A program made the position numbers and the translations under genes. From positions 913 to 57,973 of IMG/VR virus record IMGVR_UViG_3300030060_005658: 57,061 nt of DNA. One strand, given 5' to 3'. Below are positions 1 through 47,618 of this stretch, piece after piece. How positions within the stretch are numbered: the stretch's first letter is position 1; every line of letters begins with the position of its first letter. The notes below the pieces were generated by a model. That model was not told the origin of the DNA and did not search any database. It saw nothing but the letters and a program-made list of their open reading frames with translations. The stretch comes from a virus.

Positions 1-419
1 CCATGTTTCCCTTTCCCACCTCTCTTTTTTAAACTACCTATAAAGTGAGCATCTAAATAAACAGTTAATTCTCTATGTAATAAACCATGTTTTTCTCCAG
101 TAACTCTATCGGGTTTTTTCCATATTACCCAACCTTCACGTTCTGCTTGAAAATTTCTAAAACCACCGGGAATATCAAACTTCTCTAAATCAAAACGAGT
201 ATTAGAACTTTTAGACATTTCTGTTAGTATTTGTTTTAAATATACCTTTCTATGTTGAGGTTTATGTTTTCCTTTTTCTAGATAGAATCTAACCATTCTT
301 TGATTAATATCATCTAAGTTACTAAACTTAACATACTTTTTCCTATTGGTTGGTAACTTATCATTAAGAATCTTTTCAGTAAGCATAGCCCACTTATCCT
401 TAAGAATATTAAACCACAT
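1..419 (-). CDS. Tagged protein of unknown function, partial (runs off the window)
   Basis: Open reading frame from ATG at 419 to the window edge, 139 residues visible and no stop. It begins MWFNILKDK, one form of the N-terminal peptide shared by most genes of this arm. The body is basic and ends near the edge in a Lys/Gly-rich stretch. I do not recognise a domain. The ATG follows the stop of the upstream gene by a few bases (AAGTGA reads as both stop and ribosome site). Confidence 0.75.
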   Translation of the reverse strand, partial: MWFNILKDKWAMLTEKILNDKLPTNRKKYVKFSNLDDINQRMVRFYLEKGKHKPQHRKVYLKQILTEMSKSSNTRFDLEKFDIPGGFRNFQAEREGWVIWKKPDRVTGEKHGLLHRELTVYLDAHFIGSLKKRGGKGKH

Positions 420-424
420 ATTAT

Positions 425-616
425 TCACTTCTTATTAATACTATTTAATAATGCTGCATTCCAACCTTTAGTCCACATTTTAAAATCATGGTTTACATCT
501 TCACAACAAGGCTTATTACAAGTTTTTTGTTTGTTGTATATTCTAGTTTTTATTCTAATCATGTAAGGGTTTGTTTTAACTTTGTGTAAGTATTGCCTTA
601 ACATATCAACACACAA
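425..616 (-). CDS. Small Cys-containing protein, start uncertain
   Basis: 63-residue frame ending just before the tagged gene at 419. It holds a TCNKPCC cluster and aromatic residues near its C-terminus. The only starts are TTG at 616 or ATG at 604. A good AGGAG site sits instead in front of an out-of-frame ATG (MSCVLIC then stop), so either the start is unusual or there is a frameshift. Function unknown. Confidence 0.5.
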   Translation of the reverse strand: MCVDMLRQYLHKVKTNPYMIRIKTRIYNKQKTCNKPCCEDVNHDFKMWTKGWNAALLNSINKK

Positions 617-632
617 CTCATTGTATCTTCTC

Positions 633-812
633 CTACCTCTTTAGCATACCAATTAATGATTTTATTACTTTATCGAGTTCGTCTTTATCTAATGATTCTT
701 CTATCTGTTTTTTGTGGCCGTCTAATATTCTAACATACATTAGAATATCCTTATCTAATTCCTTTAGTTTATCAGGATAATCTAATTTTTTTATTGTGTT
801 TTCCCAACTCAT
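633..812 (-). CDS. Small tagged helical protein
   Basis: 59 residues, starting MSWENTIKKL, the shared tag. The rest is charged and Leu/Asp/Lys-rich, likely helical (repeats of the type LDKDxLxK). ATG at 812 overlaps the stop of the upstream terminase-like gene as ATGA, so translation is probably coupled. No domain recognised. Confidence 0.75.
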   Translation of the reverse strand: MSWENTIKKLDYPDKLKELDKDILMYVRILDGHKKQIEESLDKDELDKVIKSLIGMLKR

Positions 813-1465
813 TGTAATCTTTCCTCCATTTTACTCTTAACATCTAACCAAACTTGAGGATGGTTTTGAGCCAATACCTCTTGAACAATTTGCATTTGTG
901 CCACAATAATAGTATCCTGTCTTTTATGAATTAACTTACCCTTAAACTCCATTAGATACTTAAGTGACTCACGAATCTCTTTTGCTAGTTTAGTAAGGCT
1001 ATCAATGTAAGGAGCGTCTAATTCTGTTTCAGCAAACAATTCATCTACTTTTTCTTCAAGACGTTCAATATTTCTAGAAAGAACTGCAATTTCATCTATA
1101 TCCTTTTTAGCAATCATAGTAGCAGCAGATTTTTGAACTAATGGTTTTAGGTGCTTAGTCATATGACGCTTAACTTGTGCTTCTGAAATATTAAGAACCG
1201 TTGCTAAATCAATAGGTTTTAATTTACCTGATTCAATACCTTGTTCATATAATGCTCTATTAGGGTCGGTGCATAATTTACAACGTGGGTTACTATCATT
1301 AAAATATTCTCCCATATGATTACGTTGATGTCTCGCAGTAGTTCCACTAGGCCAGTCATTTTGAATATCTACATCATCAGGAGTTAATTGTCCAGATTCT
1401 AACGCTGCCTCTAAATCATCCCTATCTTCCGATTGGCATAATTTACAGCGTTTTCTAGTAACTAT
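809..1465 (-). CDS. Terminase small subunit-like protein with duplicated CxxC/HTH module
   Basis: The strong part is residues from the ATG at 1315: RCKLC, a helix-turn-helix segment (ATVLNISEAQVKRHMTKHL) and a long helical C-terminal half, an arrangement typical of small terminase or packaging regulators. In frame upstream the reading frame stays open to 1465 and contains a second copy of the module (RCKLC..R..LE..LESGQL.P.D...RHQRNH). No ATG, GTG or TTG exists in the extension. ATA at 1465 overlaps the upstream stop as ATAG and lies six bases after GGAGATGG, so an ATA start is my best reading, giving 218 codons. The safe minimum is 809-1315. The terminase call is inference from architecture. 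Confidence 0.65.
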   Translation of the reverse strand: MVTRKRCKLCQSEDRDDLEAALESGQLTPDDVDIQNDWPSGTTARHQRNHMGEYFNDSNPRCKLCTDPNRALYEQGIESGKLKPIDLATVLNISEAQVKRHMTKHLKPLVQKSAATMIAKKDIDEIAVLSRNIERLEEKVDELFAETELDAPYIDSLTKLAKEIRESLKYLMEFKGKLIHKRQDTIIVAQMQIVQEVLAQNHPQVWLDVKSKMEERLQ

Positions 1466-1581
1466 CTAAACCATCTCCATATTAATAATACATCAAGAAA
1501 ATTTCTTTTATTTTCCTTTTCCCAATTAGTAATCTTTTCTGACTCATCATCAAGCCAATCTTCAAGTAATCTATTGTGCAT
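1462..1581 (-). CDS. Small acidic/aromatic protein, unknown
   Basis: 39 residues, start MHNRLLEDWL, ATG at 1581 directly behind a good GGGGTGATTAA site. It lacks the shared tag. Rich in Trp, Glu and Lys. Its TAG overlaps the proposed ATA start of the terminase-like gene, suggesting coupled translation. Confidence 0.6.
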   Translation of the reverse strand: MHNRLLEDWLDDESEKITNWEKENKRNFLDVLLIWRWFR

Positions 1582-1585
1582 TTAA

Positions 1586-1984
1586 TCACCCCTCTAACGC
1601 CTCAACAATTTCATTAGTTAACATGATTATCCCATGTTCTTTAATTTGTTCCCTACCTTCTCTAGTATGATAACCTAAATTGTAAAAAATTTCATTGTCG
1701 GGTTCTCCTATTTGTCTTAATGCCTCTCTATGACCGAAAGATTCAGCAAGTTCATCTAATTCATCTAAAACTCGATAAAACTTTTCTTCATCTTCTTCTA
1801 ACTCTTTCATTCTTTTAATTTCATTTATGGAACTCTCAGGAAAACCATGTCGTCTAAGAGTATCATATAAACTTTCATGAGGTTGTTGTCTTTCTATTGG
1901 GCGATTATCATAATCAGGCTGATACTCCATAGGAGGGTCTTTATCTAACATTCTTCCATCTTTTAATATATCTTTCCAACTGAT
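1586..1984 (-). CDS. Tagged acidic protein, probable ATC start
   Basis: The tag is present as (I)SWKDILKDG. Its first residue is encoded by ATC at 1984, exactly where ATG normally stands behind GAGGTGATTAAA. An upstream ATG at 2011 lies inside the previous gene and would add nine residues with no ribosome site, and a GTG at 1993 is in frame but overlaps the Shine-Dalgarno itself. The body (about 132 residues) is very acidic in the middle (ELEEDEEKF) and probably helical. No known domain. Confidence 0.7.
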   Translation of the reverse strand: MSWKDILKDGRMLDKDPPMEYQPDYDNRPIERQQPHESLYDTLRRHGFPESSINEIKRMKELEEDEEKFYRVLDELDELAESFGHREALRQIGEPDNEIFYNLGYHTREGREQIKEHGIIMLTNEIVEALEG

Positions 1985-1989
1985 TTTAA

Positions 1990-3000
1990 TCACCTCAACA
2001 TATCCATCCAAGATTTCTTTAATTCAAAGTCAAATTGACCAGCATATCTCTTTAACATATTTTTAGTCAATGTAATTGAAAATGCTTCTACTTGACCTAA
2101 CACTTCATTATCACCAACAAGTCCTGCAACATCTTTAATTAATTCAGAAGAAGTTTTAGAAGTTATTTGTATCTTTGAATTTTGCAATTGGCGTTGTAAT
2201 TTAGTTGGAGATACTTTTCCATCTCTACCTTTAATAGCAGGACTTTTAACTAAATCATCCAATGTTTTCTTAAACTCAGGTATCTTAGATAAATCACTAG
2301 GGTCATAATTTACTTTAATATCTAAGAAAGGAATCTTAGCAGAAGGAAGCGATTTAGTTAATTTATCTAATACACCAGTTAATGAATCTTTTTCATCTAT
2401 TTTATCGCCATCACCAAATAGTGCTTGATACATTGGAGGTCTTGCAGAACCATCTTTACTCATACTCCACCAACTATCATCTACTGCTCTAATAGTTTCA
2501 TCTTTCTTTTTAGGGTCAGCGTTTCTAATTGCTACATAATCATCAGTTCTATAATGACCATATATTTCTTTGGAGACAGTTCTTCCTCTACCTCTTCTAA
2601 ATCTAACATTAAAAGGTATATTAGCAGGATTTAAATCAGAGTTATTTGAAGACATTTTGTTTAAAACTGTAACTAGTTCTTTAACCTTATTTAAGTCACC
2701 AACAGTAATTAATTCATTTGTAGTCATAATCTTTTTTAGTTCATCCATAACTTCATAATTTGCACCATCTTGATTACCAGTATTAGGTGAATTAGGTCTT
2801 TGAACTGCCGCAGAAACGTGATTAAGAACTATATCATAAAGGTTTTTTCCACCCTTTGCTCCAGTAATTCCAATATCTTCTCTACTTAATCCTTTACAAA
2901 GAGTTTCCCAATCAGAATAGAATTTACGCAACTCACCATCAAAAGTTTGAGTTACTTCATTTCTTCTTATTACTTGTCTTTTTCTTGTCTTCCTGACCAT
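1990..3000 (-). CDS. Unknown 336-residue virion/packaging-arm protein
   Basis: Starts with a strongly basic segment (MVRKTRKRQVIRRNE) and contains a second basic run (FRRGRGRTVSKE) near residue 135; the remainder is mixed helix/loop. It has no tag in its own frame, but a tagged mini-ORF (2957-3112) overlaps its start in the +1-related frame, so the native protein may be a frameshift fusion with an MWFNVLRK N-terminus. Size and position beside packaging genes would suit a structural or scaffold role; I do not recognise the family. Confidence 0.75.
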   Translation of the reverse strand: MVRKTRKRQVIRRNEVTQTFDGELRKFYSDWETLCKGLSREDIGITGAKGGKNLYDIVLNHVSAAVQRPNSPNTGNQDGANYEVMDELKKIMTTNELITVGDLNKVKELVTVLNKMSSNNSDLNPANIPFNVRFRRGRGRTVSKEIYGHYRTDDYVAIRNADPKKKDETIRAVDDSWWSMSKDGSARPPMYQALFGDGDKIDEKDSLTGVLDKLTKSLPSAKIPFLDIKVNYDPSDLSKIPEFKKTLDDLVKSPAIKGRDGKVSPTKLQRQLQNSKIQITSKTSSELIKDVAGLVGDNEVLGQVEAFSITLTKNMLKRYAGQFDFELKKSWMDMLR

Positions 3001-3112
3001 CTTCCTCTTCCTCCTTTTTCTTCTTTGAATATCTTATATTAAACAATGCACTAGTATTTGGACTTGTTGAAGTTACTACTCCTGCTACTTTTCTAAGAAC
3101 ATTAAACCACAT
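2957..3112 (-). CDS. Tagged mini-ORF, possible frameshifted N-terminus of the next gene
   Basis: 51 residues, MWFNVLRKV start, then a Lys/Glu run (KKKKEEEEDGQED). ATG at 3112 overlaps the upstream stop as TAATG. It ends inside the 1990-3000 gene after an A-rich, purine-only stretch. The downstream frame is open back to about 3031 and lies 112 bases from this ATG, so a single +1 shift would join them. A real small protein, a programmed shift and an assembly indel are all possible. Confidence 0.6.
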   Translation of the reverse strand: MWFNVLRKVAGVVTSTSPNTSALFNIRYSKKKKEEEEDGQEDKKKTSNKKK

Positions 3113-3300
3113 TACTTAACAGCATCCATTAATTCATCTAACATATCTAATGCTTCTTTAACCTTATATTGGTCATATTCTGGAACACTTTTTTCTGCAA
3201 GTAATAATGCTTTTTTAATTGTATCGAAATGTGGAGAATATCTTAAATATGATTCACTAATAATTACAGGGTCTTTTTTCATTAATTTCATCCAATCCAT
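3112..3300 (-). CDS. Small tagged protein
   Basis: 62 residues beginning MDWMKLMKKD, a tag variant with Met in the hydrophobic positions. The body is helical, ending ALDMLDELMDAVK. Stop overlaps the following ATG by one base. No known domain. Confidence 0.75.
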   Translation of the reverse strand: MDWMKLMKKDPVIISESYLRYSPHFDTIKKALLLAEKSVPEYDQYKVKEALDMLDELMDAVK

Positions 3301-3304
3301 AATA

Positions 3305-3460
3305 TCACACTCTCATAGGACAATTAGGGCCTTGTGGGGCTTTATCAGGTGAAGGTAATTTTAGTGGACATACTTCTCCACCTCTAACAAATTTTTTACA
3401 AGTTCTACAAGTTCCAGAATAATCTACTGTTCCTGCTTTAATTAATTCTTCCCACTTCAT
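3305..3460 (-). CDS. Tagged zinc-ribbon mini-protein
   Basis: 51 residues: tag MKWEELIKAG followed by CRTC, then Cys at two later positions (VCPLK and NCPMR), a pattern fit to bind one zinc. ATG at 3460 sits behind AGTGATTAAT. Shows the tag joined to a metal-binding body quite unlike its neighbours. Confidence 0.75.
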   Translation of the reverse strand: MKWEELIKAGTVDYSGTCRTCKKFVRGGEVCPLKLPSPDKAPQGPNCPMRV

Positions 3461-3465
3461 ATTAA

Positions 3466-4251
3466 TCACTTATCCTTTTTTAAAACACTAAACCAACCAA
3501 CACTATCTAAATCTTCACTAGCATATTTACTAGAAAAGTCATCATCAAAATCCTTATCTTCATCTGCCATTATTTCAGGTCTAGACATATATTCTCTGAA
3601 ATCCTTTTCTTTTTCCTGTTCTTCCATATCAGGTTGTCCTTCTATTAACATAGCACTATCTTCATCTAATTCATCTTTTTCTCTAGCAAGAAACTTACTG
3701 TATTGTAACATAGCATGAATAATATAATCTGATAAAGCACCACCAGATAATGCAGTTAAAATTTTAGTTACTTCTAAATGGTCCCATATTTGAAGGTCTA
3801 AACTACGCATAATTTCTTCTTTAGATGAACGTATAATACTATTAATTATTTTATTGATAACAGGACTATTTTTTATTTCATCTGGTATTAGCATATCATC
3901 GTCATCATATATTTCAAAAAGTTCAGTTAAATCAATACTTTCATCTTTCTCTACTTCTTCGGCCTCTTTAGCCGAAGCATCAAAAACACTACTTAAAAGC
4001 AAAGAAATAAATGTATCAATATCATCTTGAGTTATTTTATCTTTAGGTAATTTTTCAGCCTCTTCTCTTGCCTCAAACATAGTATTAAGCCCAGAAGAAG
4101 TTAAACCCTTCTTATTGCTTAATTTATTCCAAATCTCCCTATATCTCATACCGCTAACAATGGTATCAAAACGAGATTTTTCATCCTTTTTAATATACAT
4201 TAAAACACCTATTTTTTGTGACGCGCCCATGCCCTTTAATAGTTGTTCCAA
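3466..4251 (-). CDS. Acidic helical protein, start unresolved
   Basis: 261 residues in frame, starting from TTG at 4251 with no ribosome site; the first safe ATG is internal. The protein is helical and highly acidic, especially the last 80 residues (DEDSAMLIEGQPDMEEQEKE), resembling scaffold-like or DNA-mimic composition. An ATG with tag-like sequence (MNWSNFYT) lies at 4279 in another frame, 28 bases upstream; one +1 shift gives MNWSNFY fused to RLLEQLLKG. So the true N-terminus is probably tagged. Confidence 0.7.
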   Translation of the reverse strand: MEQLLKGMGASQKIGVLMYIKKDEKSRFDTIVSGMRYREIWNKLSNKKGLTSSGLNTMFEAREEAEKLPKDKITQDDIDTFISLLLSSVFDASAKEAEEVEKDESIDLTELFEIYDDDDMLIPDEIKNSPVINKIINSIIRSSKEEIMRSLDLQIWDHLEVTKILTALSGGALSDYIIHAMLQYSKFLAREKDELDEDSAMLIEGQPDMEEQEKEKDFREYMSRPEIMADEDKDFDDDFSSKYASEDLDSVGWFSVLKKDK

Positions 4252-4279
4252 TAGCCGTGTAAAAGTTAGACCAGTTCAT
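4190..4279 (-). CDS. Tag-like mini-ORF overlapping the start of the acidic gene
   Basis: 29 codons, MNWSNFYT start, in the frame offset from 3466-4251. On its own it makes no recognisable protein after residue 10. I read it as the displaced N-terminus of the acidic gene, through programmed frameshift, recent mutation or sequencing indel in the run AACTTTTACACGG. Confidence 0.35.
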   Translation of the reverse strand: MNWSNFYTAIGTTIKGHGRVTKNRCFNVY

Positions 4280-4293
4280 TATATTTTACCAAT

Positions 4294-4578
4294 TTATAAT
4301 CTCAATCCTAAACTTTGTGCAGTAACATATTTTTTCTCATCAACATCATAAAATTTAATTTCATTTCCTAAAGTAGAATGCCAACCAAATGTCCCATATA
4401 AACTATCTTTGAATTGTTTAGGCTCATAATACCTAACCCAGTTACCATTTTCTTTTTTATACAATGCCCATTTAACATATTGATGAGGTGGGGTAGAAAG
4501 ATATTTAGGTTCTCTTCCCTCTTTACGAGAAAAGGAAATCAAATACTCTTTTGCCTTAATTATATTCAACCAACTCAT
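4294..4578 (-). CDS. Tagged protein, unknown domain
   Basis: 94 residues: tag MSWLNIIKAK, then an aromatic-rich domain (KWALYKKENGNWVRYYEPK, followed by FYDVDEKKYVTAQSLG near the end) that looks like a small beta fold. ATG at 4578 overlaps the stop of the small membrane protein. Function unknown. Confidence 0.75.
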   Translation of the reverse strand: MSWLNIIKAKEYLISFSRKEGREPKYLSTPPHQYVKWALYKKENGNWVRYYEPKQFKDSLYGTFGWHSTLGNEIKFYDVDEKKYVTAQSLGLRL

Positions 4579-4718
4579 TATATTTCACCTAGTAATTTTA
4601 AACCTACATAATACAAAGTAGATAGGAAAAGAAAAAAAGAAAGTATAGTAAAACAAAACCCAAAACATATATCAATTAAACTGTATGTTGGGCTAGTAAC
4701 AACAGTAGAATTATTCAT
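4578..4718 (-). CDS. Small single-pass membrane protein
   Basis: 46 residues with one long hydrophobic segment (about residues 13-42, rich in Phe, Leu, Cys). No tag. TAATG overlap with the upstream gene and a one-base overlap with the downstream tagged gene place it in the same transcript. Size suits a holin-like or envelope-associated peptide, but no function can be assigned. Confidence 0.65.
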   Translation of the reverse strand: MNNSTVVTSPTYSLIDICFGFCFTILSFFLFLSTLYYVGLKLLGEI

Positions 4719-5197
4719 TAGTTATCCCTCCAATTAACCACTTCAGAATATTTTTTAATTTCATCAGGACTTAATATATGATTAGCGGTTATTTTAATTT
4801 CAAATTTAATAAATGTTTTATCGAAGGTATTGACCTGTAAAGACATTTTAACTACGTTCTGTAAAGGATTAGCCCAAATTGGTTCTACATAATACATTTC
4901 CCCATCTACCATCATTTTATAATAATAATCAAAACCCCATTGAGGAAATTTCATTTCATTAAGCGATTTCAAAACAGCACAAGCCACTTCTTCTGGCATA
5001 TCGTTTAATAAGAATCTGACTTCCATTTGTGTATTTTTATCTAAAATTCTAGTTTTACTCATTATTTTTTCTTGATACTCTTTTAATTTCTCAAAACACC
5101 GACTTTCTTCATCTTCTTTACTATCACTACCTAATGTAGTAGTAATCTTAGAATCTGTTCTAAGTTTGGGTTCTTTTAATAACTTAAACCAATCCAT
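4718..5197 (-). CDS. Tagged PEEVxC-family paralog 1
   Basis: 159 residues from MDWFKLLKEPKLR at 5197 behind GGGTGATAAT; an upstream in-frame ATG (5233) lies in the previous gene. Leader: tag, basic PKLRTDSKIT, then Gly-Ser and an acidic run ending in Cys. Core: helical EKLKEYQEKI and MPEEVACAVLKSL, the signature of this family. C-terminal half alternates hydrophobic and polar residues (beta-rich). Function unknown; likely acts with its seven relatives. Confidence 0.8.
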   Translation of the reverse strand: MDWFKLLKEPKLRTDSKITTTLGSDSKEDEESRCFEKLKEYQEKIMSKTRILDKNTQMEVRFLLNDMPEEVACAVLKSLNEMKFPQWGFDYYYKMMVDGEMYYVEPIWANPLQNVVKMSLQVNTFDKTFIKFEIKITANHILSPDEIKKYSEVVNWRDN

Positions 5198-5201
5198 ATT
5201 A

Positions 5202-5840
5202 TCACCCAAAAACTCCTTTGTGTAAAACTTCAATCATACGTTTATAATCTTCTTCTGTATAATCCTTATATCCAATTGGATTTCTATCTGGATTTTTAGG
5301 GTGTGATTCATAAGTTACTTGATAATATTCTACATCAGTTACGGTTATACCTTCAATGAAAATAGCAAAAACAGCATCTTGAGTGTCATCAAACCAATCG
5401 TCCCAATTTGTTGTTTTGAGTTTTTTAGTGGATTTTAAAGCAATTTCTACCAGAAATACATCAACCCTGTCCCCTTCCTCCACAACAACTTCTTCTTCAA
5501 ACATTCCACTACCTTGAGATTTTAATCTCTCAAGTAATTTTAAAACTACACAAGCAACTTTTTCATTACATAAAAAACTACCATATTCTTCACACTCAAA
5601 GGGGAACATTCTATCAAAATATTTCATATTTGATGAATCATGATGTATCCATCCTCTCTCACTATTACTTATTAGTTTTCGGTATTGCCCGCTTATTTGC
5701 ACCATTCTCATTTTATCTAAATACTCTAATACCTTCTTTAAACAATCATTATCTTCTAGTTTTGAATCAGTTCCTAAATTGGTTGTAATCTTAGAACCAG
5801 TCCTAAGTTTAGGCTGTTTTAGAATAGTTTGCCAATTCAT
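5202..5840 (-). CDS. Tagged PEEVxC-family paralog 2
   Basis: 212 residues, start MNWQTILKQPKLR. Same leader layout (TGSKITTNLGTDS, acidic stretch, Cys, helical YLDKM). The core motif is changed to CNEKVACVVLKLLERL. The middle is acidic, with a beta-rich C-terminal half (VDVFLVEIALKS, AVFAIFIEGITVTDVEYY). Overlaps the upstream relative by four bases. Confidence 0.8.
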   Translation of the reverse strand: MNWQTILKQPKLRTGSKITTNLGTDSKLEDNDCLKKVLEYLDKMRMVQISGQYRKLISNSERGWIHHDSSNMKYFDRMFPFECEEYGSFLCNEKVACVVLKLLERLKSQGSGMFEEEVVVEEGDRVDVFLVEIALKSTKKLKTTNWDDWFDDTQDAVFAIFIEGITVTDVEYYQVTYESHPKNPDRNPIGYKDYTEEDYKRMIEVLHKGVFG

Positions 5841-6463
5841 CTAAAATCTACCTCATCTGCAAACATTCCTTTTGCTAATTCTTTTAAATTATTTTTACGC
5901 TCATCTAAAGTTAGTTCATACTCACCAATTTCGCTATTATAATCAACATTAAGCCTAACGTCAATATCTTCAGAACCATCTCCATCATCCATTTTACTTA
6001 TTTCTAATTCAATTCCAGCAAATATAGCCAACCCCTTCAAAAGTGTTCTATTACCTACATAAATTCTAGCAATGATAGCAAAGGTAGACAAAGATGAAGG
6101 ATTAATTGGGTCTTTTCTATTTTCTACAAATTCATCAATTAGATACAATTGGCCTATATATTCAGCGTCATTTTCTTTACCCCTTGTAGGAAAAGACATG
6201 GGTGTTACACCATCAAAACTTAAATTACTTAATTCTTTTAATGCCTCACAAGCAATTTCTTCTGGAATTAAATCAAAATTTTTATCCATAACGCGAGTAT
6301 GTTTGAATCCTGATTCAGCCTTATTTTTAACTTTACGAATATAATTTAATAGTTGTTCTTTACACGGTGTTTTTTCTTCACTCTCTTTATCTGAACCAAT
6401 GTTGGTAGTTACTTTAGAACCAACCCTAAGTTTGGGTTGTTTTAATAAATCAAACCAGTCCAT
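5837..6463 (-). CDS. Tagged PEEVxC-family paralog 3
   Basis: 208 residues, MDWFDLLKQPKLRVGSKVTT leader, CKEQLLNYIRKVK helix, and core LIPEEIACEALKELSNL. C-terminal part holds beta-like segments (TFAIIARIYVGN, IDVRLNVDY). It ends with the residues DEVDFR, very like the ends of several relatives (KVDFR, MVEFR), so the family also shares a C-terminal signature. Confidence 0.8.
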   Translation of the reverse strand: MDWFDLLKQPKLRVGSKVTTNIGSDKESEEKTPCKEQLLNYIRKVKNKAESGFKHTRVMDKNFDLIPEEIACEALKELSNLSFDGVTPMSFPTRGKENDAEYIGQLYLIDEFVENRKDPINPSSLSTFAIIARIYVGNRTLLKGLAIFAGIELEISKMDDGDGSEDIDVRLNVDYNSEIGEYELTLDERKNNLKELAKGMFADEVDFR

Positions 6464-6468
6464 TCAAA

Positions 6469-7107
6469 TCACCCCTTATGCCAACTAAAACCAAAATTTC
6501 TTGCCTCATAATAACCTGATATTTTAAAAATATTATGCTTACCGTGAATTACATCTATTGACCTCAATCTTCCTTCTTCATCTTCATCATAAACATTTTG
6601 AACATTTTCACCATTTCCCCAACCAATTAAAATAACAAGTTTGCCTCCAATCGAAACTCGTATTTCATTATGATTTCCTTGATAATTAACTACATAAATT
6701 CTTGTAATACTATAATCACCAATTTCTTTAAAATCATCTTTTTCTTTAGAAAGCATCTTTAATGCCATACATGCTACTTCTTCTGGAACAGGGGTATATT
6801 TGAAATAAACACTCTCTTCGATATTTGTATTCCATCTACCCCCACCGTATTTTTCTTTTAAATCTATTTTATAACCTTTTTGATTTACCTGATTAGTTCC
6901 TATTCCTATAAAATATTTATGAAACGCGGGCCAACCCTTATCCCATCTTTCTTTTAACAAAGGAGTATAATTTTTCATTTTATCAGCAAGTTGTTTTAAT
7001 TTTCTATTACAAGTATCATCTTCAACATTTTCATCACTACCTAATCTAGTTGTGATTTTACTTCCTGTTCTTAATTCAGGATTCTTAATTAAATCAAACC
7101 AATTAAT
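6469..7107 (-). CDS. Tagged PEEVxC-family paralog 4, ATT start
   Basis: Read from ATT at 7107 the protein begins (I)NWFDLIKNPELRTGSK, the complete family leader, and continues to core VPEEVACMALKMLSK (213 codons). ATT lies three bases behind a perfect GGAGGTGAT site and no ATG, GTG or TTG in frame could keep the leader; the first ATG (6978) would remove 43 residues including all conserved leader sequence. This is the cleanest near-cognate start in the window. Confidence 0.8.
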   Translation of the reverse strand: MNWFDLIKNPELRTGSKITTRLGSDENVEDDTCNRKLKQLADKMKNYTPLLKERWDKGWPAFHKYFIGIGTNQVNQKGYKIDLKEKYGGGRWNTNIEESVYFKYTPVPEEVACMALKMLSKEKDDFKEIGDYSITRIYVVNYQGNHNEIRVSIGGKLVILIGWGNGENVQNVYDEDEEGRLRSIDVIHGKHNIFKISGYYEARNFGFSWHKG

Positions 7108-7111
7108 AAAA

Positions 7112-7711
7112 TCACCTCCAATCCATTTTATCTAATAACAAATTGTAATCCTTAATATTGCCCCTTACTTCATCAAATGGTAATAAGATTCTATGAGCAG
7201 GAGAAAACACTACTGGCCCATCCCCATTATCAACCATTATGGTTAATGCAATTGTAAAAACCAAATATTTCATATCATCTAAACCATACACTCTATCTTT
7301 AGATGTAATTGTTCTAGTTACTTCACACCAATAATTATCTCCTATTTGCTTATTAATAGTAGTAGAATCCCCACTAATTCCAGAAAGCATTTTTAGTGCT
7401 TTACATGCTACATCTTCTGGTAATGCAGAAAAAGATTCTTCTTCACCCTCTGTGCCATGAATGTAATAATCAACTTCTTCTTTAATAGTTCCACCAAATT
7501 TAGATTCTCTTTCTCCTTCTCTTTCTTCAAAAGGATTCTCTATGCCTAAATTAGTTAATAATCCTTTTATTTTTTTTAATTTTTCCCGATATTCTAATAG
7601 TTTTTTCTTACAAGGTTCATCGGGTTGATTACCAGAGGTTGAACTTAAGTTAGTAGTTACTTTACTACCTGCCCTTAATTTAGGGTTCTTGATAATAGTA
7701 AACCAACTCAT
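7112..7711 (-). CDS. Tagged PEEVxC-family paralog 5
   Basis: 199 residues, MSWFTIIKNPKLRAGSKVTT leader, CKKKLLEYREKLKK helix, core LPEDVACKALKMLSGIS, then a beta-rich half (YLVFTIALTIMVDNGDG) and DKMDWR end. Its last codons contain the Shine-Dalgarno of paralog 4. Confidence 0.8.
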   Translation of the reverse strand: MSWFTIIKNPKLRAGSKVTTNLSSTSGNQPDEPCKKKLLEYREKLKKIKGLLTNLGIENPFEEREGERESKFGGTIKEEVDYYIHGTEGEEESFSALPEDVACKALKMLSGISGDSTTINKQIGDNYWCEVTRTITSKDRVYGLDDMKYLVFTIALTIMVDNGDGPVVFSPAHRILLPFDEVRGNIKDYNLLLDKMDWR

Positions 7712-8196
7712 CTAAAATCAACTTCCTTAACTTTAGCATAATCTATATTATCCTTATCTAATGTTTCTCCATATTCCGTTTCATTATATAAAAATATTTC
7801 AGAGTATTTTGGATGTGGAATAGGACTATGTTCTGTATAAACTTGTAGAAAAAAGTAAACATTAAATTTATCTTCGTTTGAACGTTTTCTTGCAATATAT
7901 AGTTCACACGCAATGAACCAAATAATCCCATTTTTCTCCTTAACTGAACCAGCAAATTCATTAACCGATTTAAACTCTTTTGAATTTAATGCTTTATTTA
8001 TTATTTTTAATGTTTTACAATGAACTTCTTCAGGAATACCTTCATCCACAAAAGATCTATTACCAAGTTTATTTGCATATTCCCTTAGTTTTCTTTCACA
8101 ATCATCCTCTTCTTCTTTACTATCAATACCTAGATTAGTAGTTACTTTACTTCCAGTCCTTAACTCAGGCTGTTTAAGTAAAGTAAACCAGTTCAT
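7708..8196 (-). CDS. Tagged PEEVxC-family paralog 6
   Basis: 162 residues from MNWFTLLKQPELR at 8196; three more codons upstream (MVN) are open but would displace the tag. Leader TGSKVTTNLGIDS, acidic EEEDDC, core IPEEVHCKTLKIINKAL, end VKEVDFR. Overlaps paralog 5 by four bases. Confidence 0.8.
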   Translation of the reverse strand: MNWFTLLKQPELRTGSKVTTNLGIDSKEEEDDCERKLREYANKLGNRSFVDEGIPEEVHCKTLKIINKALNSKEFKSVNEFAGSVKEKNGIIWFIACELYIARKRSNEDKFNVYFFLQVYTEHSPIPHPKYSEIFLYNETEYGETLDKDNIDYAKVKEVDFR

Positions 8197-8198
8197 AT

Positions 8199-8462
8199 TT
8201 ACCAATCCCTACAAGCCATACATCTAGCAGAATAATCACTTCTTTTACATGATTTACAATTATGTCTTGCTCTGAAAGATTTTCTTCTTTTACCATCTCT
8301 TTTACCAGAAACAGTTACTCCCCTTTGACCCCAGTGAACTCGCTTATATCCACCTTTACCATCAGGAACACATTTCATCCACTTTTTGCCTTTAGCAGTT
8401 GAAGATGCTTTTTTGGTCGGCCCAGTGCATTTACTGGATTTTAAAGTATCAAACCAAGTCAT
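8199..8462 (-). CDS. Tagged basic Cys/His protein
   Basis: 87 residues. Tag MTWFDTLKSSK joined to a Lys/Arg/Gly-rich body with GGYKRVHWGQRGV, FRARHNCKSC and CMACRDW, giving a probable zinc site. Similar small basic proteins are widespread in tailed-phage genomes without known function (from memory, unverified). Likely binds nucleic acid. Confidence 0.75.
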   Translation of the reverse strand: MTWFDTLKSSKCTGPTKKASSTAKGKKWMKCVPDGKGGYKRVHWGQRGVTVSGKRDGKRRKSFRARHNCKSCKRSDYSARCMACRDW

Positions 8463-8731
8463 TATTTCTCATCTCTCTTTTTTTCCATTTCTGGATGAAA
8501 CTTCATGGTAACAAGTTTAGCATCTTTTTTAATTGATTTACCATCAACCAAAACTTCTACTGGATAAGGCTCATGTTTACCTGCCCAATATGCCATTTCA
8601 TATCCGCCATTTTTTAATAATTTAACAAGAAGACCTCTTTCATAATCTTTGTCTTCTGCCTGTAAAACCATTTCTTTTCCTCTAGGAAGCATCAAATCTG
8701 GCTTTTTCTTTAAAATGTCTTCCCAAGTCAT
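8462..8731 (-). CDS. Tagged small protein with beta-rich body
   Basis: 89 residues from MTWEDILKKKP at 8731 (an upstream ATG adds MIH only). The body has short beta-like segments (YEMAYWAGKHEPYPVEVLVDG). No domain recognised. Stop and next ATG overlap. Confidence 0.75.
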   Translation of the reverse strand: MTWEDILKKKPDLMLPRGKEMVLQAEDKDYERGLLVKLLKNGGYEMAYWAGKHEPYPVEVLVDGKSIKKDAKLVTMKFHPEMEKKRDEK

Positions 8732-8736
8732 ATGAA

Positions 8737-9081
8737 TCATCTCTTTGGTTTATGGGTGTAAAAATCACCATTAGTGTGTTCGTGAATAGTTCCTCTCTTT
8801 TTCATATCATCAAGAACCATTTTTAATTTTTTAGGAGAAGCAATTCCTTTAAGATTTTTCATACCCAAAGCACCACCTTCTTTCTTCACTTCAGCCAATA
8901 TTTTTCTTTCCATATCTTTACACTCATCATGGCTAATAGTTATATTACCATCTTTAAGTTCCCTTTTATTCATTCTTTCATTATGATTACCAACAAGAGT
9001 TTTTTCAAACTCTTCGTCGTCTTCATCTGTTTCCATTCTTTCTGTGCCGCAATGCATTTTTAATACGTCTTTCCAACTCAT
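8737..9081 (-). CDS. Tagged protein with possible winged-helix C-terminus
   Basis: 114 residues: tag MSWKDVLKMH, acidic linker (TDEDDEEFE), then about 60 residues (ECKDMERKILAEVKKEGG.. LKMVLDDMKKRGTIHEHTNGDFY) whose helix-helix-beta pattern resembles a winged-helix DNA-binding domain. The fold call is inference. Confidence 0.7.
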   Translation of the reverse strand: MSWKDVLKMHCGTERMETDEDDEEFEKTLVGNHNERMNKRELKDGNITISHDECKDMERKILAEVKKEGGALGMKNLKGIASPKKLKMVLDDMKKRGTIHEHTNGDFYTHKPKR

Positions 9082-9419
9082 TTTTTCATCCTCTGTGTTT
9101 TTCTTTTACTACTTTCTTTTCTGGCTAATGCTACTTTATGTGCTGCATTTAACCTCTTTTTAGTTTCAGGGTCTTTTGCTCTTTTAGCCGCCACTCTTGC
9201 TCTTTGCTCAACTAAGTTAATTATTTGAGATTGTCTTTTATGTGATTTAGATTTAAATGATGCACTTGAAAATGTTTCTCTTACATCACTAGGAGTTTTA
9301 AATTTTACAGAAACGGTATCTTTAGGGTTTTCATCTGTATATAATCTTCTTGAAGAACCTTTTGGTTTTTTACCGCTACCCTTTTTAGGTTCTTTTTTGA
9401 GAATATTAATCCAATTCAT
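9078..9419 (-). CDS. Tagged highly basic protein
   Basis: 113 residues, tag MNWINILKKEP, then Lys/Ser-rich sequence with YTDENPKDTVSVKF and a long basic helix (QIINLVEQRARVAAKRAKD). Resembles small basic proteins found in tailed and giant viruses (DUF5824-like, from memory, unverified). DNA or RNA binding is likely from composition. Confidence 0.75.
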   Translation of the reverse strand: MNWINILKKEPKKGSGKKPKGSSRRLYTDENPKDTVSVKFKTPSDVRETFSSASFKSKSHKRQSQIINLVEQRARVAAKRAKDPETKKRLNAAHKVALARKESSKRKTQRMKK

Positions 9420-9676
9420 CTTGAACCCTTCCTTCTTTTATATGTTTTACAAGCAGAACAAGTTGGCCTACATCTCCTTTTACGACCTTTTGATGCATCT
9501 TTTCTACCACAAGGTCTTGGTCCGTCTTTACTACCACAAGAAGAACAATCAATCCATCCTCCTTGTGTTTTACCACCTTTTTCTTTTCCACCCCTTCTAG
9601 AAAACCAACCATGTAAACCGGACTCTTTTTCCCTTTTGAAATTATCTCCGGCTTTTAGCGTATCAAACCAATTCAT
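9416..9676 (-). CDS. Tagged basic zinc-knuckle protein
   Basis: 86 residues: tag MNWFDTLKAGD, then GLHGWFSRRGG, CSSCGS, RPCGRKD and CRPTCSACK: at least six Cys in CxxC arrangements, plus many Arg/Lys. The GLxGWF..CxxC..CGR..CRPTxSAC pattern is one I remember as recurrent in phage proteins of unknown role. Probably binds zinc and nucleic acid. Confidence 0.75.
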   Translation of the reverse strand: MNWFDTLKAGDNFKREKESGLHGWFSRRGGKEKGGKTQGGWIDCSSCGSKDGPRPCGRKDASKGRKRRCRPTCSACKTYKRRKGSR

Positions 9677-10140
9677 CTGAAATCCACCTTCTTTAATGCT
9701 TCTTCTCTAGAAAGTCCTGCTGTTTTATTATTAAAATCTAATATAATATAAAAAGCAAATCTAGAATAATCATTAGAATGAACATTTACTTGAAAACTTG
9801 CCTCGTCTTTCATGGGGTAATAATACCATAATGTTTCAACGTCATACTGAATACCATTCTTCTCAACATATTCGCTTATTTCATCATTAGGTTGTATTCT
9901 ATTTAATTGATTCAATATTTTACAATACACTTCTTCTGGTAAATCTGAAGACATCCAATCTAAAAAAGAATATCCCAGTAAATCTGAACCTGTTTGTGAA
10001 TAATTACCAACTTTATCTGCATACTCTTTAACTTTCCTTTCACAATCATTGTCCTCATTTTCAGATTCACTACCTAAATTAGTTGTAACTTTATTACCAA
10101 CCCTTAGTTTGGGCTGTTTCAAAAGAGTAAACCAATTCAT
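9673..10140 (-). CDS. Tagged PEEVxC-family paralog 7
   Basis: 155 residues from MNWFTLLKQPKLR at 10140 behind GAAGTGATTATT. Leader VGNKVTTNLGSES, acidic NEDNDC, helix ERKVKEYADKV, core LPEEVYCKILNQLNRI, end KKVDFR. The first 13 residues are nearly identical to paralog 6 while the C-terminal halves differ widely. Confidence 0.8.
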   Translation of the reverse strand: MNWFTLLKQPKLRVGNKVTTNLGSESENEDNDCERKVKEYADKVGNYSQTGSDLLGYSFLDWMSSDLPEEVYCKILNQLNRIQPNDEISEYVEKNGIQYDVETLWYYYPMKDEASFQVNVHSNDYSRFAFYIILDFNNKTAGLSREEALKKVDFR

Positions 10141-10145
10141 AATAA

Positions 10146-10301
10146 TCACTTCTTTTTAGATTTATTTCCCCAATTTGCTGCGCCAACTTTTCTACATCTA
10201 ACTAATGCACCACTAGCATAAGCAGAAGGCCACTTTTTATATCTAGAACGCACCTTATGGTAACAAGCATCTTTCTTATTTTTTAATATATCAAACCACA
10301 T
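10146..10301 (-). CDS. Tagged small basic protein (DUF5872-like)
   Basis: 51 residues: tag MWFDILKNKKDA, then CYHKVRSRYKKWPSAYASGALVRC-like sequence with a KVGAANWGNKSKKK end. The WPSAYASGALV..CRKVGAANWG pattern is one I associate with a widespread phage domain (DUF5872), normally found without this tag. Shows the tag attached to a known, independently occurring module. Confidence 0.75.
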   Translation of the reverse strand: MWFDILKNKKDACYHKVRSRYKKWPSAYASGALVRCRKVGAANWGNKSKKK

Positions 10302-10306
10302 TTTAT

Positions 10307-10876
10307 TCACCTAAACTCAACCATACTTATTGCCTTATTTACATCTTCGTTAAACCAATTAATACCCGGAGATAATTTAGCAACATCTACACTTATAATA
10401 ACACTAGTTTCAGGAGGAAAATCTCCACCTAACCTTTTACTACCAGTATATAACCACATAAAATCTACTGAATTTCTATACATTAAATCACGAAAATTAT
10501 TATAAAATTTATCAGTAACTAATCTGTGTCTTAACTCAACATAACCATTTGGATAATAATCCATTCTTTCGATAATATGAGCCTTATTAAATACATTTGC
10601 ACTATAACCTTGTTGAGTATAAACCATTTTATTTTTATCTATCATAGATATATCTTTTAATATCGCACATAGTTCTTCTTCTGTAAAATCTTCTAACCGA
10701 TAATTATCAACTTTAACTTGCATATGTGGGCCAGACATGGATTCTATTTTATTTATATATTCTTGATACTTTCTTCTACAATCATCGTCTTCTTCTTCAG
10801 TTTTACTACCTAAATTAGTTGTAATTTTACTAGCAGGTTTTAACTCCGGTTGTTTAATAATACCAAACCAATTCAT
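10307..10876 (-). CDS. Tagged PEEVxC-family paralog 8
   Basis: 189 residues from MNWFGIIKQPELKPASKITT at 10876, acidic EEEDDDC, helix RRKYQEYINKIE, and core FTEEELCAILKDIS (divergent). End VNKAISMVEFR. The largest change from the family is the middle aromatic-rich region (residues 80-150). A repeat element (CAAAAATTTTTGGCGGAATTTT) lies just upstream. Confidence 0.8.
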   Translation of the reverse strand: MNWFGIIKQPELKPASKITTNLGSKTEEEDDDCRRKYQEYINKIESMSGPHMQVKVDNYRLEDFTEEELCAILKDISMIDKNKMVYTQQGYSANVFNKAHIIERMDYYPNGYVELRHRLVTDKFYNNFRDLMYRNSVDFMWLYTGSKRLGGDFPPETSVIISVDVAKLSPGINWFNEDVNKAISMVEFR

Positions 10877-10914
10877 ACTAAACACCTTTTCACAAAAATT
10901 TTTGGCGGAATTTT

Positions 10915-11163
10915 TTACTGCATATCTTCTTGTAGTTTCAATAATTTTTCAAACGCTATTACAGCATCACCTAATTCAGAAATACTTAAACCAATATCTC
11001 TTAATTTGTCTTGAGTTTCTTTATCACTTTTTGACTCAGGAGTAAATGTTTCAAATTCTTTAAAATTATTCATTGCTATCATTACTGCACCCTTCAAACC
11101 CTGAATAAATACATTCGCATTTTCAGAATAATATGTTTTCTTGAGTTCTTCTTCCCATTTCAT
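10915..11163 (-). CDS. Tagged helical protein
   Basis: 82 residues: MKWEEELKKTY (tag with acidic substitutions) and a helical body ending ELGDAVIAFEKLLKLQED. Flanked on both sides by the CCGCC/AAAATT repeat. No known domain. Confidence 0.7.
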   Translation of the reverse strand: MKWEEELKKTYYSENANVFIQGLKGAVMIAMNNFKEFETFTPESKSDKETQDKLRDIGLSISELGDAVIAFEKLLKLQEDMQ

Positions 11164-11614
11164 AACAATACCTCATTTTAATTTTACTTTTTCAAAAATT
11201 GTGGCGGAATTTTAGTGGCACTAGCGTTAACTTTTTAATTCTTTTTTTTCTATTTCCAGTATAAAAATATATTATTTAATTATTAAATGATTTAATTATA
11301 TTATATTCGGTTAGTATCGAATGTATTGTATTCTTATTGGCAAAGTATTATTGTTATCTTTAATATTTATTATTATTAATGTTACTGGCTTAATTAGTGG
11401 CTGCAATCCTATTAAACTCTTGTATAAAGTATTTTAGTGAAGTTTTGATTAGATATAATATAATTTATTAATTAATATTGACCCCTCGTTATTTTTATAT
11501 TGTATTTACTAAAAGTTTTCAAAATTAAACATTTAATTAGAGATAAACAAGTTCGTTATTCGCACCATTTGAATAATAAATATTAATTTAGTATTGTATA
11601 TATTGTTTCTTTAA
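11164..11614. other. AT-rich intergenic control region
   Basis: 450 bases with no supportable gene. Very high A+T, several short inverted repeats (for example around TTAATTATTAAATGATTTAATTA near 11276), and one copy of the GGCGGAATTTT repeat at 11193-11212. It lies near the point where minus-strand genes give way to plus-strand genes, so promoters and possibly a replication start are expected. I cannot fix any site. Confidence 0.4.
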
Positions 11615-11899
11615 CTATAACATGTTGTAGTATTGACTAGATATTTCTTTAATCAACTTTAATTTTAAATGATGTTTATAGTCATCTTTTACATATGTTT
11701 TCATTTGGCGCATTCCATCTAAATGATTCTTTAATTCAATACAATCCATAGACATAATAGTTCGCTTATACTTATCAAAATCACGATAATACTTTGCACT
11801 CCTTATTTCATTGAGATACTTATCACGTATATTCTCGCATCCAAACTCATTAATACTGGTTTGTCTATATTTCAATATAGAATCAAACCAATTACCCAT
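11615..11899 (-). CDS. Tagged protein, first gene of the leftward arm
   Basis: 94 residues from ATG at 11899: MGNWFDSILKYRQ, the tag with one extra residue. An upstream start (11944) would add a hydrophobic 15-residue stretch; I prefer the tag-based start. The body is helical and charged (KYLNEIRSAKYYRDFDKYKR). Function unknown. Confidence 0.65.
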   Translation of the reverse strand: MGNWFDSILKYRQTSINEFGCENIRDKYLNEIRSAKYYRDFDKYKRTIMSMDCIELKNHLDGMRQMKTYVKDDYKHHLKLKLIKEISSQYYNML

Positions 11900-27730: not shown

Positions 27731-27985
27731 ATGAAATGTGCAATATGTGATGAAGAAATGAAAGATTATGAAAGCAATAACCCTTATCCCCTTTTGACGG
27801 GAAAAAATGAAAGAGTGTGTAGAGATTGTAATGATTTCGTTACTGCATCTAGAATATATTTTAGGGGTGCAGATGAGGACAGTAAACAAATACTTTGTGC
27901 TAATATAACAAATGTATTAAAAATGGGTTTTAGTTTAAAAAAAAGTAGGGAAGAATTAATGAAAAGGATGGAGGAAAAACAATGA
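27731..27985 (+). CDS. Zinc-binding small protein
   Basis: 84 residues from ATG 27731 (TTG at 27725 adds two). CAICDE and CRDCND separated by 30 residues form a treble-clef-like pair; C-terminal helix is basic. ATGA-type overlap with the E1-like gene. Confidence 0.65.
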   Translation: MKCAICDEEMKDYESNNPYPLLTGKNERVCRDCNDFVTASRIYFRGADEDSKQILCANITNVLKMGFSLKKSREELMKRMEEKQ

Positions 27986-28560
27986 GTAGAAAAATAATGA
28001 TTATAGGAGCAGGAGGAATTGGTAGTTTTCTAATTCCTTTACTAAATAGAACAGGGTTGTATGATATTACAGTGTTTGACCCAGATAAGGTTGAAACAAA
28101 GAATCTTACTTATCAGAACTTTAAGAAGGGTCATGTAGGACAAAATAAGGCTTTAGTTATGCGTCAAGAATATTCTAACGTAACACATGCTAGTCAATTT
28201 AAAGTTCTAACACCTAATCAAATTAGCGGATATGATATTGTTGTTTGTTGTGCAGATAATTTAGATGTAAGAAGGCTTCTTTATCGTCAAGGTTTTGGTG
28301 AAGATGCTAATTTAAAATGGTTAGATACAAGAGCGCAAGGAAGAAATGGTGCGGTAATATCTTACAAAGTAGATAAAAATCTAGCAAGCACTCTTTTAGC
28401 AGGAAAAGAAGGTTCTTTCTCATGTCAGGGAGAAAACTGGGATGGTAGTGCTAAAGGAGTAAATTATATGCAAGTGGTTGTAGCGGGTCTTGCTATTCAA
28501 TGGCTACAAAATTACTTCATTGATAATGAAGTATTTGAATATAAGGTGGTGAATGCCTAA
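27982..28560 (+). CDS. E1-like (ThiF/HesA family) adenylyltransferase
   Basis: 192 residues, a minimal Rossmann E1 core. IIGAGGIGSF nucleotide loop (residues 8-17), DPDKVETKNLTYQNF (family motif normally ending NLxRQ), HVGQNKA with the adenylating Lys, VVCCADNLDVRR, and FSCQGENWDG holding a candidate catalytic Cys. Such enzymes adenylate the C-terminal Gly of a Ubl. The JAMM gene follows with a one-base overlap. Confidence 0.85.
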   Translation: MSRKIMIIGAGGIGSFLIPLLNRTGLYDITVFDPDKVETKNLTYQNFKKGHVGQNKALVMRQEYSNVTHASQFKVLTPNQISGYDIVVCCADNLDVRRLLYRQGFGEDANLKWLDTRAQGRNGAVISYKVDKNLASTLLAGKEGSFSCQGENWDGSAKGVNYMQVVVAGLAIQWLQNYFIDNEVFEYKVVNA

Positions 28561-28991
28561 TGGAATGGAATCAAGAAATAAATGATATATGGAATTTAAT
28601 ACAGAAGACAACAAAGAATGTAGCAGATTTATATCCTGTTATATGGAAAACTTCTATGGAACGAGATAATAGAGAAGTGCAAGTAGTTATTGACGATAAT
28701 GATAATATATTCTCTTCAATAGGAAGTCCTTCTTTTGTTGCATTTATGCAAGCACCCGTTGGTTTAAAATTACCCATTAAAGAATGGATTCATACTCATC
28801 CTTTTGGTAGTGCTTATTTTAGTGGAACTGATGTTAAAACTGTAAGAACATTTGAACCTGTTATGGAAAAAGCAACAGTATTAGGTTATAATCAGATAGC
28901 AACTTGGACTCCTTTATTTCAAGAGCCTTATGAACACTTTGTTTGGTTACATGAAGATGTAGATTATATTCATGGAGATGAAGAAGAATGA
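28560..28991 (+). CDS. JAMM/MPN metalloprotease
   Basis: 143 residues. Perfect JAMM zinc motif: His78-x-His80 then seven residues, Ser88-x-x-Asp91, preceded by strands typical of MPN proteins (VQVVIDDNDNIF). JAMM proteases trim Ubl precursors or remove them from targets; directly coupled to the E1-like gene. The proposed Ubl ends GG-NY, which would need just such trimming. Confidence 0.85.
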   Translation: MEWNQEINDIWNLIQKTTKNVADLYPVIWKTSMERDNREVQVVIDDNDNIFSSIGSPSFVAFMQAPVGLKLPIKEWIHTHPFGSAYFSGTDVKTVRTFEPVMEKATVLGYNQIATWTPLFQEPYEHFVWLHEDVDYIHGDEEE

Positions 28992-38670: not shown

Positions 38671-38671
38671 T

Positions 38672-40915: not shown

Positions 40916-40916
40916 A

Positions 40917-41213: not shown

Positions 41214-41215
41214 AT

Positions 41216-47092: not shown

Positions 47093-47316
47093 AATGGGAA
47101 AATAAATATATTGTATTTGACGCAATAGATGGGCCTAAAGTTATTCAAGAAAGTTTAGATACTTTTGGAGATGAAGGTTGGGAATTAGCAACAATGATTA
47201 CCGTAGCCGGTGAAAAGATTGTAGCATTCCTTAAACGTAGGCATGGTATTGTTGAAGAAAAAGTTGATGATAAAGCAGAAAAATTAGCGAAGTTATGGGG
47301 AAATGACGGTAAATGA
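47089..47316 (+). CDS. DUF4177-like small protein
   Basis: 75 residues. MKWENKYIVFD..LDTFGDEGWELATMITVAGEKIVAFLKRR matches the short DUF4177 pattern (N-terminal WEYKVV, then eGWELv and FLKR). Helical end. ATGA overlap both sides. Note that MKW here is part of the DUF4177 fold, not the tag. Confidence 0.7.
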   Translation: MKWENKYIVFDAIDGPKVIQESLDTFGDEGWELATMITVAGEKIVAFLKRRHGIVEEKVDDKAEKLAKLWGNDGK

Positions 47317-47618
47317 GTTGGCAACAAATATTAAAAATTAGTCGTAGGGAAGCATCTGAATTAGGTGATAAATACGCTCCTGAAGATATGAAACAGTTTA
47401 GATTAGAACAATCAGAAAAACGAAAAGAAGATGCTAAACCTGCTCTTAAACAATTTTTAAATGAATTAGATAGTGATAAAACAATGGATGAAGATACTTT
47501 CAAAAAAATTAGAAATGTATTAATGCTGATAGTCCGAGATTTACAGGATGTTCCTAAACTTAGAGGAAAAAGTAGAGAACAACTTATTGAAATATTAAAA
47601 GATTATTTAGGTGAATAA
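47313..47618 (+). CDS. Tagged helical protein within the replication operon
   Basis: 101 residues, start MSWQQILKISRREA, an exact match to the tag of the leftward arm. The rest is helical with a KRKEDAKPALKQFLNEL stretch. It is the clearest tagged gene on the plus strand, 35 kb from the main tag cluster. Confidence 0.7.
   Translation: MSWQQILKISRREASELGDKYAPEDMKQFRLEQSEKRKEDAKPALKQFLNELDSDKTMDEDTFKKIRNVLMLIVRDLQDVPKLRGKSREQLIEILKDYLGE

Follow-up and report, generated by a model that had tools for sequence, protein, structure and literature searches.

A short tryptophan-containing peptide tag on many otherwise unrelated late proteins of magroviruses, and its possible role in capsid cargo loading

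The DNA analysed is a stretch of 57,061 nt (bases 913–57973 of the 57,973-base virus contig IMGVR_UViG_3300030060_005658), referred to as a whole as the window, in which most genes of one arm carry a short peptide tag built around tryptophan (for example, MSWKDVLK). This tag-bearing block forms the left arm (1–11.9 kb, - strand), while the + strand arm (12.1–48.2 kb) specifies replication proteins and the right end (48.9–57.1 kb, - strand) tail proteins. About 100 relatives of the clamp-loader protein, with 56–99% identity, are found in IMG/VR contigs that reach 97 kb. Two divergent arms, genes for PolB, clamp, RFC, TFB and ligase, and tail and packaging genes on the opposite strand were all found, as described for Magrovirales (PMC10768690). 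Since the contig agrees with that order in gene content and in having two opposed arms (PMC10768690, PMC10160649), the window is part of a magrovirus, a tailed virus of MGII/Poseidoniales archaea, which are abundant in the ocean.

The tag or a variant of it is present in 24 of the approximately 28 genes of the left arm: 19 N-terminal, two C-terminal and three near-variants. A tag was scored as N-terminal in the window where W at position 2 or 3 is followed by x-x-x-[ILVM]-[KR], and the 19 genes (all on the - strand within 1–11899) are marked N-tagged in the following list. A single tagged gene (MSWQQILK) lies in the opposite arm and is given last.

633..812 (-): N-tagged, 59 amino acids (aa), MSWENTIKK
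809..1315 (-): untagged, 168 aa, small-terminase-like (Cys-rich, helix-turn-helix, coiled coil); weak Pfam match to Phage_terminase (0.039)
1586..2011 (-): near-variant close to the N-terminus (...ISWKDILK; ...VIKISWKDILKDGR), with ATC in place of ATG behind a GGTGATTAAA site
1990..3000 (-): conserved late protein, 336 aa, C-terminal tag (...KKSWMDMLR*)
2957..3112 (-): N-tagged, 51 aa, MWFNVLR, with a C-terminal AGVVTSTSPNTSALFN..KKKK motif
3112..3300 (-): N-tagged, 62 aa, MDWMKLMKK
3305..3460 (-): N-tagged zinc-ribbon-like protein, 51 aa, MKWEELIK
3466..4200 (-): 244 aa protein, C-terminal tag (...VGWFSVLKKDK*)
4294..4578 (-): N-tagged, 94 aa, MSWLNIIK
4718..5197 (-): N-tagged member of a paralogous family, MDWFKLLKEPKLR
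5202..5840 (-): N-tagged member of the same family, MNWQTILKQPKLR
5837..6463 (-): N-tagged member of the same family, MDWFDLLKQPKLR
6469..6978 (-): divergent member of the same family, near-variant with Tyr, MKNYTPLLK
7112..7711 (-): N-tagged member of the same family, MSWFTIIKNPKLR
7708..8196 (-): N-tagged member of the same family, MNWFTLLKQPELR
8199..8462 (-): N-tagged basic Cys-rich protein, MTWFDTLK, DUF5754-like below cut-off
8462..8731 (-): N-tagged, 89 aa, MTWEDILK
8737..9081 (-): N-tagged winged-helix protein, MSWKDVLK, of the largest tagged family (49 members among the matches listed)
9078..9419 (-): N-tagged basic protein, MNWINILK
9416..9676 (-): N-tagged basic Cys-rich protein, MNWFDTLK, GLHGWFSRRGGK module
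9673..10140 (-): N-tagged member of the paralogous family, MNWFTLLKQPKLR
10146..10301 (-): N-tagged basic protein, MWFDILK, DUF5872-like below cut-off
10307..10876 (-): N-tagged member of the paralogous family, MNWFGIIKQPELK
10915..11163 (-): N-tagged, loose form MKWEEELKK, 82 aa
11615..11899 (-): first gene of the left arm, near-variant with an offset tag, MGNWFDSILK
47313..47618 (+): tagged gene in the replication arm, MSWQQILKISRREASELGDKYAPED

An earlier, sequence-only reading of this DNA had put the number of proteins sharing the peptide at about 24, as counted here, and its motif is real, although the residue three after Trp may also be Thr or Glu and Trp itself, which it held to be invariant, is replaced by Tyr in 6469. 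It had also placed the peptide at the N-terminus, which is true of the 19 genes but not of the two C-terminal copies. The eight-member paralogous family that it recognised is confirmed, seven members being linked by BLAST and 6469 being a distant one. Relatives of the 1990..3000 protein also terminate in tag-like sequences (KSWKMIL*, KSWVELLRV* and KKSWMEQLWRD*), and those of the 47313..47618 gene are located in the late arm of other magroviruses. Three further tagged genes occur in contig bases 1–912, just outside the window. The untagged small-terminase-like gene is conserved beside the tagged block in magroviruses, and its homologue in genome G011 has matches in seven of eight compared genomes. 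At the 1586 gene (1586–1968, - strand), a ribosome-binding site (RBS) precedes ATC AGT TGG, whereas the neighbouring genes have ATG AGT TGG, a discrepancy that may reflect an unusual start codon, a sequence error, or a start at an upstream GTG or TTG.

Nine magrovirus genomes (the window contig and eight near-complete genomes of 75–97 kb) contain 127 N-tagged genes, which fall into about 91 body families and lie almost exclusively on the late strand; most genomes have 12–24 carriers. A DNA pattern for M-x-W-x-x-I-[LF]-K gave 44 matches in 14 related contigs, against two for the reversed control; 11 of the 14 contigs were positive, and the matches share one orientation within each contig. The stricter pattern M-[STR]-W-[KNDE]-D-I-[LF]-K retrieved at least 119 stretches from IMG/VR, and 107 of the 119 among the matches listed resemble magrovirus proteins. 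With these loci included, the unique tagged proteins number at least 648 and form about 385 body families; here and below, figures for these families refer to the matches listed. Homologues from other genomes keep the tag, as the earlier reading would have it, and many that seem untagged actually hold off-pattern or internal tags; a few are truly tagless. The tag is a lineage-wide feature of magroviruses, broader than one window. No earlier description of the peptide was found in the magrovirus literature searched, which was not exhaustive.

Shuffling the first residues of the proteins rules out a chance origin. Among late-strand genes of the window contig, 15 strict motifs were observed against a shuffle mean of 0.015 (maximum 1), a comparison with shuffled N-termini that the earlier reading had proposed. 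Across the nine genomes the strict motif occurs in 109 late and two early genes, and the loose motif in 134 of 604 late-strand genes (shuffle mean 2.0, maximum 7) versus 2 of 657 on the early strand (shuffle 1.55). The tag is thus almost confined to the late arm, where the tagged genes lie around TerS and extend to the vicinity of TerL and the portal, stopping just upstream of TerL; the late/packaging location given earlier was correct. Bacterial and archaeal genomes totalling 257 Gb contain 35 scattered matches to the stricter pattern, which is the chance level; very few coincide with a gene start, and Poseidoniales have none. Since there is no enrichment in these genomes, a host-derived motif can be ruled out, and the tag is not a host-wide code.

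Over the approximately 385 families the consensus is M-[STN]-W-[KEQ]-[DN]-[IV]-[LI]-K. Some columns were partly preselected by the search pattern, but the unselected positions are still biased: S, T or N precedes Trp in 75%, K, E, Q or F follows it in 84%, and D, N or E is found two residues after it in 74%, while at position +5, where K, R and N were allowed, 96% have K. Conservation stops sharply at K8, with no shared residues or cleavage site downstream. The 385 family representatives use 307 distinct 18-mers to encode the tag, and Leu appears in all six codons, therefore selection acts on the peptide, as had been argued from the window. An exception is Ser2, which is AGT in 93% versus 30% elsewhere, and because of this bias codon 2 carries some extra signal at the DNA level, of initiation context or ancestry. 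In genomes G008–G012, several tagged ATGs are preceded by 16 bases that hardly differ within or between genomes (GCAGGAGAGATTACA), which suggests that RBS and tag move together as a cassette.

The tag is not tied to the start of the protein. Nine internal copies were found in late proteins and none in early proteins, some of them between fused modules, and C-terminal copies in proteins lacking an N-terminal tag number seven on the late side against a shuffle mean of 0.85 (maximum 4). These copies therefore indicate a position-tolerant, portable docking motif, not a leader or an initiation signal. From the residue pattern, positions 2 (S/T/N/D) and 5 (D/N/E) would form a classical helix-capping box, with W3, I6 and L7 on one face. 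Two AlphaFold models made with family alignments are of low confidence (pLDDT 55 and 65) and consistent with this arrangement, each having a short tag helix, a disordered linker and a separate body. For 5837..6463 the predicted body is alpha/beta, and for 8737..9081 a linker of 28 residues leads to a winged helix. Two other roles were considered: a cleaved leader seems unlikely, as no cleavage site is seen after K8, and a membrane anchor was rejected, since the tag is too short and a membrane segment is predicted for only 1 of 385 bodies.

A typical tagged protein is a single module of about 100 aa. Recognised bodies include DUF6321 and, above the Pfam cut-off, PAP2, GNAT, pentapeptide repeats and a tRNA-ligase-type phosphodiesterase, while a 10-member HExxH family and ART-like HGS/HGT proteins were assigned by motif only. 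Basic modules also occur, and the tagged winged helices are closest to Z-alpha domains (Foldseek E 0.057, TM 0.81 on target). Different folds (PAP2, GNAT, pentapeptide, winged helix, HExxH) rule out a single homologous family behind all tags, and the earlier claim of many unrelated bodies is borne out by these folds and by the division into 385 BLAST families. The bodies are soluble, the single predicted membrane segment comparing with 61 of 384 untagged late open reading frames (a set that includes some spurious ones). They also turn over fast while the tag persists: ten tagged genes of G011 have homologues in 0–3 of eight other genomes, whereas its TerL, portal, protease and major capsid protein (MCP) have them in 6–7 of eight. 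In one complete genome (L112), the conserved late proteins include the portal (1377–3014), a 715 aa protein (6475–8622), the protease (8667–9875) and the MCP (9877–11271). A possible SAM lyase body in a tagged protein (L290:1342-1854) scored below the cut-off (20 of 28 bits), and a record above it (29.5 bits) falls in a 424 aa frame without an N-terminal tag (L155:1585-2859); neither was counted.

Two further C-terminal motifs recur in these genomes. One, AGAVTTSSxPALFNxxYxxKKKKE, is found in about one gene per magrovirus genome (2957–3112 on the - strand of the window, L111:6313-6468, L162:1626-2519 and L122:9263-9607), fused to very different proteins that include an HExxH peptidase, and in L226, L193 and L194 an internal tag directly precedes it. 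The other, RGxFT[AR], stands at the C-terminus of ten tagged proteins, either basic or winged-helix and from three families (L118, L134, L144, L150, L155, L163, L204, L218, L219 and L235), and of almost no other open reading frame.

The closest known parallel is the capsid-targeting sequence (CTS) of T4. The three internal proteins compared, IPI, IPII and IPIII, begin MKTFKEFT, MKTYQEFI and MKTYQEFI, and resemble the tagged proteins in that a short, constant peptide starts small, variable and otherwise unrelated bodies, in the pattern aromatic-x-x-hydrophobic-hydrophobic, and in the presence of a virus-encoded prohead protease. The sequences themselves are unrelated (M-K-T-[YF]-x-E-F-[IT] versus M-S-W-K-D-I-L-K), with only the aromatic-x-x-hydrophobic spacing in common, and the magrovirus tag is not strictly N-terminal, has no visible cleavage site although a prohead protease gene is present in magroviruses, and has 12–24 carriers in most genomes rather than three. 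Because it differs in sequence and is not confined to the N-terminus, the tag was not counted as a member of the T4 CTS. The sequence-only reading had drawn the parallel with the cleaved T4 leader; a leader of that kind is not supported, given the end of conservation at K8, the lack of a shared downstream site and the internal and C-terminal copies, and the interpretation is partly supported overall.

Other systems share some of these features. In encapsulins, a short cargo-loading peptide brings unrelated cargo into a shell of HK97 fold; such peptides are usually C-terminal and differ in sequence from the magrovirus tag. Several tagged bodies belong to or resemble the basic DUF6321, DUF5872 and DUF5754 modules of marine phages and giant viruses. 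Phage DUF6321 lies in head/packaging modules (in pelagiphages and cyanophages between the scaffold and capsid genes or beside TerL), but the phage homologues compared, those of HTVC031P, S-TIP28 and P-TIM68, lack the tag. Polyvalent proteins delivered by phages often carry zincin peptidase, ART and GNAT domains, and the ART Alt of T4 is itself packaged (PMC5512222). The polyvalent proteins, proposed to be co-delivered with the genome (Iyer et al. 2017, PMC5512222), resemble the tagged set in their zincin-like peptidase, ART-like and GNAT domains, but join several domains in one long chain, where magroviruses mostly have one small domain united with others by the peptide.

Given the late arm around TerS and TerL, the constant peptide, the fast-changing soluble bodies and domains typical of phage-delivered proteins, we consider it probable, with some reserve, that the tag is a capsid cargo-loading (docking) motif working like the T4 CTS. 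It would be a short linear motif forming a capped helix of one to two turns, with Trp3, Ile6 and Leu7 as its hydrophobic face and a conserved Lys8, borne by small, soluble accessory proteins whose repertoire changes rapidly. As the head assembles, every tagged protein would bind one conserved virus-encoded receptor, candidates for which are the prohead scaffold/protease region, the portal or the inner capsid surface. They would then be packaged together with the DNA and enter the cell infected next, where the basic and winged-helix proteins may bind or protect DNA and the enzymes may modify host targets or blunt host defence. A broader version seems about evenly balanced between right and wrong: a universal plug-in code whereby gaining the eight-residue tag, whether terminally or between modules, makes any protein virion cargo. 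In this way the lineage, an order of archaeal viruses abundant in the ocean, would have built an exchangeable stock of hundreds of packaged proteins that bind DNA or modify the host early in infection.

Several points weigh against cargo loading. To our knowledge there is no virion proteome for any magrovirus. The MCP, portal and protease are untagged, there is no conserved cleavage site of the T4 kind, and the AlphaFold models have low confidence. Most tagged bodies lack a recognisable function, the 47313 gene lies outside the late arm, and no such tag was seen in the regions read of Druskaviridae (which have a related MCP) or HGTV-1. The receptors named above are candidates, and virion packaging is something we infer because the best-studied magrovirus family has no member in culture (PMC10768690).

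If the tag instead docked late proteins onto TerS, TerL or the portal within the cell, so that they regulated packaging, genome ends or the completion of heads but stayed out of the virion, the position of the block around TerS and up to TerL and the portal would be expected, and related basic modules do adjoin TerL or sit between scaffold and capsid in other marine phages. However, 12–24 different, fast-changing adaptors (PAP2, GNAT, ART-like, peptidase) are hard to explain as co-factors, and we think this unlikely. Slightly less likely again is recruitment to a cytosolic hub (an assembly site, host protein, RNA polymerase or proteasome), with the late arm reflecting timing only. A Trp-x-x-Ile-Leu helix is a generic docking motif and one tagged gene does lie in the other arm, but the tag is otherwise essentially absent from that large replication arm, the motif is at chance level in prokaryote genomes and missing from Poseidoniales, and late synthesis is ill-suited to enzymes that look like early-acting effectors unless they are delivered.

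Magroviruses encode GroEL/GroES (PMC10768690), and each of the seven other near-complete genomes compared encodes a homologue of the GroEL-like protein of G011, so a client signal for this chaperonin could be imagined. Chaperonin clients normally need no sequence tag, however, many tagged proteins, at less than 100 aa, would hardly require a chaperonin, and the likeliest client, MCP, is untagged, which makes the idea very improbable. Least probable of all is that the shared start is an effect of translation initiation or of a 5' cassette (RBS and first codons spread by recombination) and not a functional peptide. The AGT bias at Ser2 and the recurrence of GCAGGAGAGATTACA-like sequences upstream within genomes would suit it, but codons 4–8 vary while their residues stay constant, and the C-terminal and internal copies contradict it, ruling out an initiation artefact.

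If the cargo-loading proposal is true, the tag would reveal from sequence which proteins are packaged and injected by viruses that are among the most abundant archaeal ones of the surface ocean, and hundreds of anonymous genes could be predicted to code for delivered effectors. It would offer a general route to proteins that counteract the defences of MGII archaea, a subject on which almost nothing is known, and represent an independently evolved counterpart of the T4 CTS outside bacteria, with looser rules of position.

Other features of these genomes were recorded. At 27982–28991 (+) of the window, a ThiF/E1-like protein and, immediately after it, a JAB/JAMM-peptidase-like protein (HTHPFGSAYFSGTD) make up an E1-JAB pair; each of the eight magrovirus genomes compared has a homologue of the E1-like gene. 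The family B DNA polymerase (38603–42157, +) is apparently in two halves, with a GIY-YIG-like gene (40337–40915) and a small zinc protein between them. At the contig end (bases 377–1340, L009), near-identical coding stretches (VYLKQILTEMSKSSNTRFDLEKFDIPG...) border a run of ten Ns (903–912), and because of this there may have been a scaffolding duplication. Finally, a conserved 621 aa protein with HNH-endonuclease-like and NUDIX-like regions is encoded after TerL in another locus (L111:17996-19861, +).

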